From Bdellovibrionales bacterium (GTDB taxonomy: Bacteria > Bdellovibrionota_C > UBA2361 > RFPC01): 34,931 nt of DNA. The stretch lies in assembly GCA_020434565.1 (NCBI GenBank), contig JAGRAO010000007.1, positions 1 through 34,931 on the forward strand, read 5' to 3'. The translations under genes and the position numbers were made by a program. Positions within the stretch are counted from its first letter, which is position 1. The number at the start of each line of letters is the position of its first letter. Below are positions 18,439 through 23,137 of the stretch, piece after piece. The notes beneath the pieces were generated by a model. The model was not told the DNA's origin, searched no databases, and saw nothing but the letters and a program-made list of their open reading frames with translations.

Positions 18439-19896
18439 CTACGGTTTTTCAATTTTGAGCGAGTCACCTGAGATCTTGAGGAGCGAAGGTTTTTCATTGA
18501 GGAGAGTTTCCAGCACTACTTCTCGACCCCACAAGGCTTTTGCGTGCTTAAGAGATTGTTCAGCATATTCCAACTGTAAGTCTCTGCCATCGTGATAGTG
18601 CTTGAGGTACAGCGTTCGCTTGGATCCGAAGTCCGCATCTTCGACTTTAATCACAGGAAGCGACGCCGAGCCAACACTTCGAATGAGAGTTTCTTTTACC
18701 TGAAGCCAGTTCTCTTCGTCAGCGACTTTGGTAATGATTCGCTCTTTTCCGCGCTTCTCATGTTGGAAAAGCTCTAGCTCCCTCATGATGTCTACTGTCA
18801 GAAATCGCCTGAGAAAGGATGTGTCTCTGTCAGATTCTCGGACTTCAAAGATTTTTTTTCTTCCAGGAGTTTCATTCTCTGGGATCGAACCCAAGTTCGC
18901 TGGGGGAGTATCGTCGGTATACTCTCGCCCAGTGTCTCCTTCGTTCCACCTTCTCTCAATATCGTGCCAAATAACAAACCCGAGGTGATATGGGTTGAGT
19001 CCACCCGGAGTCGGTCGCAAAACTTGATTGTGGCGGACAAGGAATTCGAGGTGGAAGCCATCTCCGAGATCAAGTTCGCGGAGAATTTTATAATGCCAAT
19101 AGCTTGCCCACCCCTCGTTCATAATCTTTGTTTCCATCTGGGGGATAAAATAGCGCGTCTCCTCGTCGGCGATATGCAGCAGATCCCGCTGCCATTCGCC
19201 GAGGTATGGATTGTATCGCGCAATGAACTCAAGCAGGTTCTCTTCCGGCTCAAGGGGAACTCGAGACAGATCTGGCGGGGTATACTCTTTCTTTGGGTGG
19301 ATTTCTCTCCACGGATCTTCTGGGTGTTGCGCCTGCTCCCATTTTCTGAGCCGAAGCTCGGGTTGCGAAAGCTTCTTAATCGCCATGTTCCGAGTACGTT
19401 GAAACGAGAGGGCGTGAGCGTGATCGAGAATGCTTTCGACTCCCTCAATTCCGATGGACGGGTCTTCGATATACGAGTCGACGCGTCGACCGTGACTCTT
19501 AAACATCTCGACGGTGTACTGCGCATCGATATTTGACGTAAACGTAAAATTGTTTGCGAAAAAGTCGTTGTGACCGTAGACGTGCGCCATTGTGAGAATC
19601 TGGAGCAAGTCGGTATTGTCTCGCATGAGGTAGGCGATACACGGATTGGAGTTGATCACCATCTCGTACGGCAAACCTGAGACGCCGTAATCATAGAGTG
19701 TTTTCTGTTTTTCAAATGATTTTCCAAACGACCAGTGAGCGTATCTGGAGGGCATCCCAGAATACGCCATATACCCAAGCATCTCATTGTGATCGCACAC
19801 CTCGAACTCTTGTGGATAACAATTGAGTTGGTATTTCTCGACGAGTTCGAGAATCTTGTCATCCCATTCCTGAAGTTGCTCAAGGGTAAGACTCAT
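18439..19896 (-). CDS. spoVR: SpoVR family protein
   Basis: The 485-residue sequence matches SpoVR/YcgB proteins along its length: GYMAYSGMPSRYAHWSFGKSF, NTDLLQILTMAHVYGHNDFF, a long His/Glu-rich core, MNEGWASYWHYKILRELDL, and NPYHLGFVIWHDIERRW. In Bacillus the protein takes part in spore cortex formation. In Gram-negative bacteria its homologue is encoded with PrkA and YeaH or expressed with them in stationary phase; its biochemical activity is unknown. The conserved H-x-H-N and E-x-W-x-x-Y-W-H motifs suggest a metal site, but this is inference. Start supported by GGATAGGAAG just upstream. The gap to yeaH is 10 bp and to the small membrane-protein gene 15 bp, so one operon is likely. Confidence 0.95.
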   Translation of the reverse strand: MSLTLEQLQEWDDKILELVEKYQLNCYPQEFEVCDHNEMLGYMAYSGMPSRYAHWSFGKSFEKQKTLYDYGVSGLPYEMVINSNPCIAYLMRDNTDLLQILTMAHVYGHNDFFANNFTFTSNIDAQYTVEMFKSHGRRVDSYIEDPSIGIEGVESILDHAHALSFQRTRNMAIKKLSQPELRLRKWEQAQHPEDPWREIHPKKEYTPPDLSRVPLEPEENLLEFIARYNPYLGEWQRDLLHIADEETRYFIPQMETKIMNEGWASYWHYKILRELDLGDGFHLEFLVRHNQVLRPTPGGLNPYHLGFVIWHDIERRWNEGDTGREYTDDTPPANLGSIPENETPGRKKIFEVRESDRDTSFLRRFLTVDIMRELELFQHEKRGKERIITKVADEENWLQVKETLIRSVGSASLPVIKVEDADFGSKRTLYLKHYHDGRDLQLEYAEQSLKHAKALWGREVVLETLLNEKPSLLKISGDSLKIEKP

Positions 19897-19906
19897 ACTT
19901 CCTATC

Positions 19907-21148
19907 CTAAGAAGTTACCGATGCGGCTCCTTCGCTACTCGTTGTTCCCGGAGTAACGTTGAGCGGACTCGTCTTGTCTTTCGTTAAAAAGCTCTTAAAT
20001 GCTGGCCAGAGATCCTCTTTCTTTTCAATGACAAGCATCTGAAAATTATCGCGGTCTATCTTTGAGAAGACATCAAGCATACTGCCGGAATAGTAAGCGC
20101 TGCCCGAAGGCTTGATCTCCCCATATCCAAAGAGGTTGCAAACGTCACACAGCTGTTCAGCTGCCTGGATTGCGCGATCGTTGTCAGAGTAAAAGTTGTC
20201 ACCGTCGGAACAGTGAAACGCATACACGTTCCACAGTGAGGGGTGGTAACGGTCTTCGATAATATCGAGCGCTTTTTTGTATCCGGATGAAATGTACGTT
20301 CCCCCAGACTCAACTTTATGGAAGAACTCCATCTCAGTAACTTCTTTTGCTTCAGTATGGTGAGCGATAAAAACGACTTCGACGTTCTGGTACTTCTGCC
20401 GGACAAATTGGTACAGGAGAAAGTAAAAACTCCGAGCAAGATACTTTTTCACAGTTCCCATCGAGCCCGAGGTGTCCATGATGCAGAAAACCACAGCATT
20501 CGATACTTCACGAGTCGTAGGAGCGATATGAAAATAGCGGAGATCATCCTTATGGAAAGGAAATTCGCCTTTCTTTGAAGAGTCCTGGGTACCTTCTTCT
20601 TCGTCTATTCGGTCTGATGCAAGCTGCCGGCGAATGCGGTTTTTCGCCGAAGCCTTTTTGTTGAGACGCGGCCGAATGCCGGCAGTTCGAATTCCTTTTC
20701 GTTTCATGGCGTGCTCAGAAACGATCTGCCGCATCGCTTTCTTTTCAAGCTCCGGGAGTTCGAGATCGTCGAACATGATCGAGAGCAGTTCCTCAAGAGT
20801 GACATCCGTCTCAATTGCGTCGACCCCCGGCTGATCTCCTCCTCCCTGTCCGACAGAGGGAGATCCCTGTTCGGCTGGGCCGATGACGTCGCCCGGCTTT
20901 TGATCGCCATTCCCTTGCGCGACCCCTGGGGCGTTCTCGCCATAGATAAAGCGATATTCCTTTATCGAGCGAATAGGGATCTTAATGATCTTGTCTTTAT
21001 CGCGCCCGATAATCGACTCTTCCGACAAGATATCGGCGATGTTGTCTCGAATAGAGTCTTTAATCTTTTGGCGGTGACGAGCCCTATCTCGAGCGCTCCT
21101 ATCAGAGCGTTGGCTGGTGGGAACGTATGGACGAAAGATTGTGCTCAT
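19907..21148 (-). CDS. yeaH: DUF444 / YeaH-YhbH family von Willebrand-like protein
   Basis: The product matches the YeaH/YhbH (DUF444) family, usually encoded beside prkA. Its N-terminus is basic (SDRSARDRARHRQKIKDSIRD) and is followed by a Gly/Gln-rich linker and the helical segment LEELLSIMFDDLELPELEK. A von Willebrand A-like domain carries the MIDAS motif DTSGSMG (residues 225-231). I chose ATG 21148 (413 residues) because AGAGGAGT lies at 21151-21158 and the family starts close to this point; a longer GTG start at 21178 would lie inside the loop of the hairpin between prkA and yeaH. The protein is thought to work with the PrkA kinase in stationary-phase and nutrient-stress responses; the mechanism is not known. 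Confidence 0.93.
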   Translation of the reverse strand: MSTIFRPYVPTSQRSDRSARDRARHRQKIKDSIRDNIADILSEESIIGRDKDKIIKIPIRSIKEYRFIYGENAPGVAQGNGDQKPGDVIGPAEQGSPSVGQGGGDQPGVDAIETDVTLEELLSIMFDDLELPELEKKAMRQIVSEHAMKRKGIRTAGIRPRLNKKASAKNRIRRQLASDRIDEEEGTQDSSKKGEFPFHKDDLRYFHIAPTTREVSNAVVFCIMDTSGSMGTVKKYLARSFYFLLYQFVRQKYQNVEVVFIAHHTEAKEVTEMEFFHKVESGGTYISSGYKKALDIIEDRYHPSLWNVYAFHCSDGDNFYSDNDRAIQAAEQLCDVCNLFGYGEIKPSGSAYYSGSMLDVFSKIDRDNFQMLVIEKKEDLWPAFKSFLTKDKTSPLNVTPGTTSSEGAASVTS

Positions 21149-21160
21149 GAACTCCTCTGA

Positions 21161-21195
21161 TATCCAAGAGAGGACCACGCGATCCTCTCTGGATA
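21161..21195 (-). promoter_or_regulatory. Strong intercistronic hairpin between prkA and yeaH
   Basis: TATCCAAGAGAGGA (21161-21174) pairs with TCCTCTCTGGATA (21183-21195): 13 bp with one bulged A and an 8-base loop. It stands between the prkA stop (21209) and the yeaH ribosome binding site (21151-21158), with only two bases between stem and RBS. No T-run follows. It could tune translation of yeaH, stop 3'-5' decay or mark a processing site. Confidence 0.7.
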
Positions 21196-21208
21196 ATCAT
21201 TGTTCGCG

Positions 21209-23137
21209 TTAGTCCTTCCACAGGTTGTTTGCGGCGTACTTAAGAATGGTATCAACACAAGCAGCGGGATAGCCGTTTTTAATGAGCTGCTCAACCATGC
21301 GCTCGTACTTCTCGCTCTGTTCTTGATCTCGAGTTCGCGCTTTCGTGATGATCCGAGAAACGTCTCGCACGCTTGACATAAGCTTCTTTTCAATTGCTTC
21401 TTTGAGAGGTTCGTAACTCTCGTAACTGATCTTTTCGCCCTTGCGGCTTACTGACCAGAGGTATGCGATCACTTCTTGGCGGAATCCATCACTTGCAGTT
21501 CCAATAATGGCGATCTGCTCTTCGATGGATTTCATGAACGCCTCATCGGGTTCGAGATCTTCACCAGTGTTACGATCCTTGAACTTCTTCTTATTCACAT
21601 AAGCCTCGGCGTGATCGAGATAGTTCTGGAAGAGCGACTCTGCCTGCTCTTGATAAGAGTAAACGAAAGCCTTCGTGATCTCTTTCTCGAGGATTTCGAG
21701 ATACTCTTTGTGAAGAGTGTCTTGGAGAAACTCGAGGTACTGCTTTCGCACATCGTCTGCCATATCACTCGCTTTTACCATTTGCACGAGGGCTTCTCGA
21801 ACATTCAGCGGGTGGATACAGTTGTCTTGAATATTATCAGAAAGAGCGTTGTCGAGCGCTTTCATGATGAAACGAGTGGAGATACCGGTCATCCCTTCGT
21901 CTTTCGCTTCCTCTCTGAGCTCGACGACATCGATCTTCTTTGTTTTTCCTTTCTCAACGACCTCTTCTCCGTTATACAGTTTGAGTTTCGTCAAGAGATC
22001 GCATTTGTTTGTTGCTTGAAGGCGGCTCAAAATCGCAAACATCGATGCAATTTCAAGGGTGTGAGGAGCGATGTCAGCCGTGAAGCGAGATTGCCGAATG
22101 ATCTTTTTATAGATCTTTACCTCTTCAGAGAGCCTTAAGTTGTAAGGAACTTTAACCGTGACGATACGGTCGAGAATCGCTTCGTTCGCGTGGTCACTCT
22201 TAAACTTTTTCCACTCAGCTTCGTTCGAATGCGCCAAGATGCATGTGTCGACATAGATCATTCCGTGACGACCGGGAGCAGGGATGTGTTTTTCCTGAGT
22301 CGCTGTGATCATCGCATGGAGATACTCAGTTTCGTTCTTGAACACCTCAATGAATTCCACCATCCCACGGTTCCCGACGTTGAGCGCTCCTGAGAGGTCC
22401 AACACCAGCGGATCGCCTTCGGAATACTTATGGAGTTTCGAAATGTCTTCTCCCCCAACGAGAACACTGGTGTCCTGGTTGTTTGGGTCAACCGGAGGTA
22501 CGACACCCACTCCACGACGGGCACGAACGCTGAATTCGTAAGTTCGAACCGGCATCTCTTCCCAGTGGCCTTGGAATTCAGTTTTTAATCGGTACCGAGT
22601 AATCGGGTTAAGATCTCCCTCGATTTCTACCCCGAGCATCTTGCTGAACTCTTTGCGGAGGTGGCGAGGAATAAGATGGAGCGGCTCCCCGAGCATCGGA
22701 TCGTCTTCAATCGCGTAAAAAGGCGGGAGGAGTTCAAGTCCACGCTTTATCGCTTCAACGAGGGAGCTTTTCCCCGATCCTACCGGACCAACAAGAAAGA
22801 GCACTTGGCGGCTCTCTTCTCCTTTGAGGGATGCCGAGTGAAAGTACCGAACGATCTCGCTGACCGTTTGGTGCATCCCGTAAAAATCTTCTTTAAAAAA
22901 GTTGTACTCTCGCAGCGTCTCCTTCTTGTAGAGGCGCTGGAGTTTTGGATCATCCTCTAGGTTGATCTCGGTTACGCCGGGTTCCATCAGCATGTCGTAG
23001 ATGCGACGGTGGGAAAGTTTCGCAATCGATGGATCTTCCCGTACCAGTTCGAGATATTCGAGCATCGTTCCACGCCAACGCTCTTTCTGTCTCTTTTCTC
23101 GATCTTGGGTGATAAGTTTTTGAAAATCGTCTGTCAT
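21209..23137 (-). CDS. prkA: PrkA family serine protein kinase / AAA ATPase
   Basis: The 642-residue sequence is a full-length PrkA (YeaG) protein. An N-terminal AAA-like domain contains the P-loop GPVGSGKSS at 117-125 in the context RQVLFLVGPVGSGKSSLVEA. It is followed by PrkA-typical segments (GEPLHLIPRHLRKEF, RRGVGVVPPVDPNNQDTSVL, DLSGALNVGNRGMVEFIEVFKNE split across the centre) and a C-terminal helical part formerly annotated as the kinase-like domain. PrkA has been reported as a serine kinase and, in Bacillus, an ATP-dependent protease active in sporulation; in enterics it acts in nitrogen starvation and stationary phase with YeaH. GGAG lies 3 bases before ATG 23137. It is the first gene of the minus-strand cluster with yeaH and spoVR downstream. 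Confidence 0.96.
   Translation of the reverse strand: MTDDFQKLITQDREKRQKERWRGTMLEYLELVREDPSIAKLSHRRIYDMLMEPGVTEINLEDDPKLQRLYKKETLREYNFFKEDFYGMHQTVSEIVRYFHSASLKGEESRQVLFLVGPVGSGKSSLVEAIKRGLELLPPFYAIEDDPMLGEPLHLIPRHLRKEFSKMLGVEIEGDLNPITRYRLKTEFQGHWEEMPVRTYEFSVRARRGVGVVPPVDPNNQDTSVLVGGEDISKLHKYSEGDPLVLDLSGALNVGNRGMVEFIEVFKNETEYLHAMITATQEKHIPAPGRHGMIYVDTCILAHSNEAEWKKFKSDHANEAILDRIVTVKVPYNLRLSEEVKIYKKIIRQSRFTADIAPHTLEIASMFAILSRLQATNKCDLLTKLKLYNGEEVVEKGKTKKIDVVELREEAKDEGMTGISTRFIMKALDNALSDNIQDNCIHPLNVREALVQMVKASDMADDVRKQYLEFLQDTLHKEYLEILEKEITKAFVYSYQEQAESLFQNYLDHAEAYVNKKKFKDRNTGEDLEPDEAFMKSIEEQIAIIGTASDGFRQEVIAYLWSVSRKGEKISYESYEPLKEAIEKKLMSSVRDVSRIITKARTRDQEQSEKYERMVEQLIKNGYPAACVDTILKYAANNLWKD

Follow-up and report, generated by a model that had tools for sequence, protein, structure and literature searches.

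The spacer between prkA and yeaH in the window (the whole stretch of 34,931 nucleotides) carries a stable stem-loop in the sense RNA. It is one more intercistronic hairpin, and as such a fairly ordinary find. Judging from sequence and placement, we tentatively suggest, at somewhat less than even chances, that it acts as an ordinary intercistronic stem-loop, which would shield the 3' end of prkA and separate this gene from yeaH-spoVR. This assignment is favoured by the location of the stem, which lies in the sense RNA and between genes of the same orientation, the lack of a U tract, the mostly free Shine-Dalgarno (SD) sequence, the precedent of E. coli, and the fact that prkA is set apart from the other two genes. 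The stem is also a worked case of a striking hairpin that is real, yet not conserved.

All three genes are encoded on the minus strand. The upstream gene, prkA (21209..23137), codes for a PrkA family serine protein kinase / AAA+ protein of 642 amino acids, identified from its ORF and from the NCBIfam PrkA family model PRK15455.1 (E 4e-128, 428.7 bits, which is under the model's cut-off of 576). Its stop codon (21209-21211) is followed by the 60 nt spacer (21149..21208) and then by yeaH/yhbH (19907..21148; DUF444, 413 amino acids), with the ATG at 21146-21148. The third gene, spoVR (18439..19896, 485 amino acids), starts 10 nt past yeaH; like yeaH, it was assigned from its ORF and NCBIfam, with a score of 314.7 bits against the SpoVR family, under that model's cut-off of 679. 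From the spacing, we infer that the three genes share one transcript. A GTG start in-frame upstream of the ATG, within the hairpin (ORF 19907-21178), was rejected, because the ATG has an SD and begins the conserved MSTIF; in most relatives read, the N-terminus of YeaH is MSTIFRPY or a close variant. An out-of-frame ORF of 32 codons, which runs from an ATG at 21200 and overlaps yeaH, was given no weight. The source genome is uncultured and fragmented (84% complete, 434 contigs, 3.83 Mb). In E. coli, the yeaGH (prkA-yeaH) operon takes part in the response to starvation and stress, the sRNA SdsR reduces its translation, and YeaH is described as a protein of unknown function (PMC10954441). The top NCBIfam model for the YeaH of the window (19907-21148) is the sporulation protein YhbH (TIGR02877, 470 bits, just over the cut-off of 467.95), and the PRK05325 models score at most 250.7 bits, well under this value. 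The YhbH-like YeaH occurs in a lineage whose nameable relatives are metagenome bins that carry labels such as Bdellovibrionales, Oligoflexia and Deltaproteobacteria.

The original prediction, made from the letters of the window, was of a 13-bp hairpin between prkA and yeaH with a single bulged A, located past the prkA stop and directly 5' of the yeaH ribosome binding site. All of this holds at the exact coordinates. On the plus strand, the arms TATCCA (21161-21166) and GAGAGGA (21168-21174), separated by the bulged A at 21167, pair across a loop (21175-21182) with TCCTCTC (21183-21189) and TGGATA (21190-21195), giving 6+7 = 13 Watson-Crick pairs for the core (21161..21195). Local folding assigns -22.3 kcal/mol to 21160-21195. 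When the same 67 nt are folded for both strands, the coding-strand RNA does better than the plus strand (-26.0 vs -22.9 kcal/mol), because U.G and C-G pairs extend the stem as far as a GCGU loop. An outer extension (UGA/UCA) adds 3 more pairs, so that in the coding-strand RNA the self-complementary segment comprises 42 nt (21158..21199), with a predicted stem of about 18 bp. This stem is flanked by 9 nt on either side, which separate it from the prkA stop and from the yeaH ATG, respectively, and the SD sequence GAGGAG (21152..21157) begins directly 3' of it. The arms also show dyad symmetry in the DNA, as would be expected if the dyad were bound by a protein, either as an operator or within an internal promoter of yeaH. 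We consider such a DNA-level role most improbable, since the G.U pair and the greater stability of the sense-strand fold point to RNA, the stem is present in single copy in the genome, and the minus-strand scan, which was directed at sigma-70-like sites with other promoter types outside its scope, detected none near the stem.

The claim that the pairing exceeds chance expectation is borne out by a scan for stems with at least 13 Watson-Crick pairs, at most one bulge and a loop of 3-12. The scan returned one stem for the window and two for a further 303,448 bases of the source genome, and ten mononucleotide-shuffled versions of the window contained none. Moreover, the 67-nt region is more stable than all of its 200 dinucleotide shuffles (z -3.8), and 0/300 shuffles of the 60-nt spacer alone are as stable (z -4.4). 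By fold energy, the prkA/yeaH stem is strong, yet it is not unique in the source genome: a hairpin of -22 kcal/mol or lower within 80 nt past the stop is found at 4 of 46 tandem junctions, prkA/yeaH included (the junctions being defined by mechanical gaps of 30-150 nt in sampled stretches).

The comparison with known classes of hairpins narrows the choice. No U tract follows the stem on either strand. A canonical intrinsic terminator was rejected, as the stem lacks a U run and is absent from the terminator-like sites scanned. The same observations make it improbable that the stem attenuates or partly terminates transcription between prkA and yeaH, all the more so as the SD and the yeaH start come immediately after the stem. 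However, in sampled stretches of three members of the family, U-tract hairpins are no commoner past genes than at random, so that a terminating function is compatible with the lack of a U tract. In these stretches (G000, which is the source genome, G001 and G002), hairpins with a tail of at least 6 T in 8 show no higher frequency past stop codons than at random positions; in G000, for example, a hairpin with a T-rich tail is found at 2/66 non-tandem gene ends vs 19/1000 random positions. The three genomes thus appear not to depend on intrinsic terminators of the classical kind. A REP or other repeated palindromic element was rejected because only the stem's own copy is found in the 84% complete genome, the four other matches of the repeat search being short (14-19 nt, E 1.65-3.07). 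A conserved structured RNA was also rejected, since the spacers of the same family cannot be aligned and no Rfam family exceeds its gathering score in the window (the best below it is Thr_leader, 17.9 bits vs 55). With the mRNA-stabilising intercistronic stem-loops, the index stem shares a stable sense-RNA hairpin between co-directional genes and the absence of a U tract. Retention of the structure in relatives, which is usual for this class but not required, is not found.

The partition function leaves the SD mostly open, with unpaired probabilities of 0.72-0.90 for the first five bases and 0.16 for the last, and a switch that sequesters the SD is accordingly unsupported. The predicted partner of GUUC is a GAAC close to the prkA stop. 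The stem could nevertheless act on translation only, as an insulator that stops post-prkA reinitiation at yeaH and slows loading of the 30S subunit, with no role in mRNA decay. Its position, 9 nt away from either gene, fits this idea, as does the cost of opening the region from -20 to +14 around the yeaH start, which is raised by about 8 kcal/mol (15.3 kcal/mol with the 42-nt segment, 7.1 without). For the region from -9 to +3, the costs with and without the segment are nearly equal (4.6 and 5.1 kcal/mol). The open SD speaks against such an insulator, and so does the fact that two members of the same family, G002 with a spacer of 14 nt and G004 with one of 46 nt, manage without it. We therefore regard a purely translational role as rather unlikely.

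Relatives were sought in a sample of 45 genomes of the phylum, in which the genus of the source genome is represented by one genome, and their prkA/yeaH junctions were located by tblastn. A yeaH match is present in 40 of the 45, and prkA lies upstream of yeaH at 38/39 loci examined in the phylum; the distance between the two genes ranges from -1 to 153 nt. Of 30 genomes, 27 have more nucleotides between prkA and yeaH than between yeaH and spoVR, 2 have fewer and 1 has the same number (median of 34.5 nt for the first gap and of 7.5 nt for the second), which indicates that yeaH and spoVR form a compact pair from which prkA stands apart. The original prediction had proposed conservation of the stem at related junctions as a test, and here the result goes against it. 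No alignment was found among the five spacers of the same family, and a strong hairpin is present in only two of them, with unrelated stems: in the source genome (spacer of 60 nt), and in G001 (locus L008, also 60 nt), where a perfect 11-bp hairpin has an AAAA loop (p 0.003). In G003, the spacer of 70 nt contains a borderline hairpin (p 0.06), in G004 there is none (46 nt, p 0.6), and in G002 the 14 nt are too short for testing. Among the 28 spacers in the phylum of at least 20 nt, six reach p 0.01 (G000, G001, G012, G014, G040 and G024). The strong unrelated stems at the same junction in G001, G012, G014 and G040 were counted in favour of a boundary between prkA and yeaH-spoVR. In G012 (locus L023), the spacer holds two successive strong stems, which are unrelated to the index stem. 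In G024 (locus L029), the whole 28-nt spacer is a single 10-bp hairpin with GAAGGAG in its loop, just ahead of the yeaH start, a possible SD-in-loop arrangement.

The lack of alignment among the spacers of the family is also what would be expected if the 42-nt self-complementary segment were a functionless palindromic insert, neutral or nearly so, that originated in a spacer free of constraint. Removing it would leave a spacer of 18 nt, inside the range of the relatives (e.g. 14, 18, 25-28 nt). Equally significant hairpins are found in about 1 in 18 control spacers (10/182), and there is no clear excess at the junction. Yet the stem is nearly perfect although it is single-copy, and hence does not derive from a still-visible repeat family, and it sits between genes, where a stem would matter. 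On balance, we consider a functionless insert unlikely, if well worth bearing in mind.

Whether hairpins are enriched at the prkA/yeaH junction depends on how starts are chosen. An initial comparison of spacers of at least 30 nt gave hairpins in 5/20 prkA/yeaH spacers vs 10/185 controls (Fisher 0.008), or 4/19 without the index case (p 0.03), and 4/11 vs 9/134 for spacers of at least 50 nt (p 0.009). This comparison was unfair, as the starts of the controls were the farthest possible ones in mechanical ORFs, and those of the prkA/yeaH junctions were curated. The farthest-start rule shortens spacers, that of the index case itself from 60 to 30 nt. In addition, G012, G014 and G040 had entered the control set because of their hairpins, and the 185 controls of the first test still held three prkA/yeaH junctions without hits (G000, cut short, G004 and G013). 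With one start rule for both groups, the counts are 3/19 vs 10/182 (p 0.11). In fixed windows past the stop, they are 3/20 vs 6/182 for 60 nt (p 0.05; 0.17 without the index case) and 3/20 vs 9/182 for 80 nt (p 0.10; 0.28 without the index case). Loci L011-L020 were excluded from the hairpin counts, because L012 and L015-L018, at the least, duplicate genomes already in the sample, as the rest also appear to do. The apparent excess was thus largely due to unequal start-codon rules, and faded once case and control starts followed one rule. There is no sound evidence that hairpins are commoner at the prkA/yeaH junction than in other tandem spacers.

The same junction of E. coli offers a partial parallel. 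The annotated yeaG-yeaH spacer has 112 nt (L101 4844-4955), and a stem is found 7 nt past the yeaG stop in all four E. coli sequences read, with the eight outer pairs intact and variation in the loop-proximal bases. The region is present in 5,374/5,426 E. coli genomes. As in the window, a hairpin without a U tract occurs soon past the kinase gene. In contrast to the index stem, which adjoins the SD, the unrelated E. coli stem is 79 nt away from the yeaH start, and its energy is not below that of spacer shuffles (p 0.25-0.41). The E. coli hairpin ends in GGCCTAC, which resembles the tail of E. coli REP units. Among plasmid and chromid spacers of Pseudomonadota, 0/13 reach p 0.01, Cupriavidus and Ensifer coming nearest (p 0.06). 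Six of seven Hyphomicrobiales spacers have at most 37 nt.

Hairpins of this kind are well known in E. coli. According to the main text of PMC5927463, which does not mention yeaG, the mRNA 3' end lies just past a stable hairpin without a U tract in 26 of the 34 gene pairs whose upstream gene is stabilised. The structures have been retained in 75% of the cases that E. coli shares with Salmonella and in 91% of those that it shares with Enterobacter (PMC5927463, main text); these genera are closer to E. coli than the relatives available for the index genome are to it. The index stem resembles this set, as well as malE-malF and puf, in that a stable hairpin without a U tract follows the upstream gene, at a boundary where the needed amounts of the products may differ. 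It differs in that it is predicted from sequence and is not a repeated element; moreover, 17 of the 26 E. coli hairpins lie in the downstream coding sequence (PMC5927463, main text), whereas the index stem is located in the spacer. A second model is the papBA-type arrangement, with an RNase E cut and a 5' protective hairpin (as covered in the main text of PMC5927463), by analogy to which the index hairpin could shield the 5' end of yeaH-spoVR. In this respect the index locus is different, since only 9 nt separate the prkA stop from the stem.

If the index stem shields the 3' end of prkA, as we tentatively propose, the yeaH-spoVR part of the transcript would be cut first. The stem would then block 3'-to-5' exonucleases, and the prkA segment would outlive the rest of the mRNA. 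The stem may also raise the cost of opening the 30S footprint of yeaH. By either route, the output of prkA would increase relative to that of yeaH-spoVR. What would matter is the presence of the stem and not its sequence, which would fit relatives with different stems or none. The interpretation given in the original prediction stands in part: placement, the sense-RNA stem, the open SD and the longer spacer agree with a spacer element that separates prkA from yeaH-spoVR, but the stem is unconserved, there is no clear hairpin excess at the junction, and the E. coli stem remains within the range of shuffles. Any of the three roles named in that prediction, control of the PrkA:YeaH ratio, mRNA processing or stabilisation of the prkA segment, may apply. 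If the stem sets the ratio of kinase to partner, it would provide a simple handle on stoichiometry. A bolder version, in which the prkA/yeaH-spoVR boundary has been selected for some hairpin of any sequence, with repeated independent origins in the phylum and in E. coli that keep the kinase in excess, appears very doubtful to us.

Two further observations concern yeaH in the phylum. In G028 (G028:C16:44849-45985) and G029 (G029:C139:134-1270), the yeaH matches contain one in-frame stop each (TAG and TGA, respectively), and their start overlaps the prkA stop by one base. In G015, G018, G020, G024 and G026, a second, distant YeaH homologue with 32-35% identity is present beside the close match.
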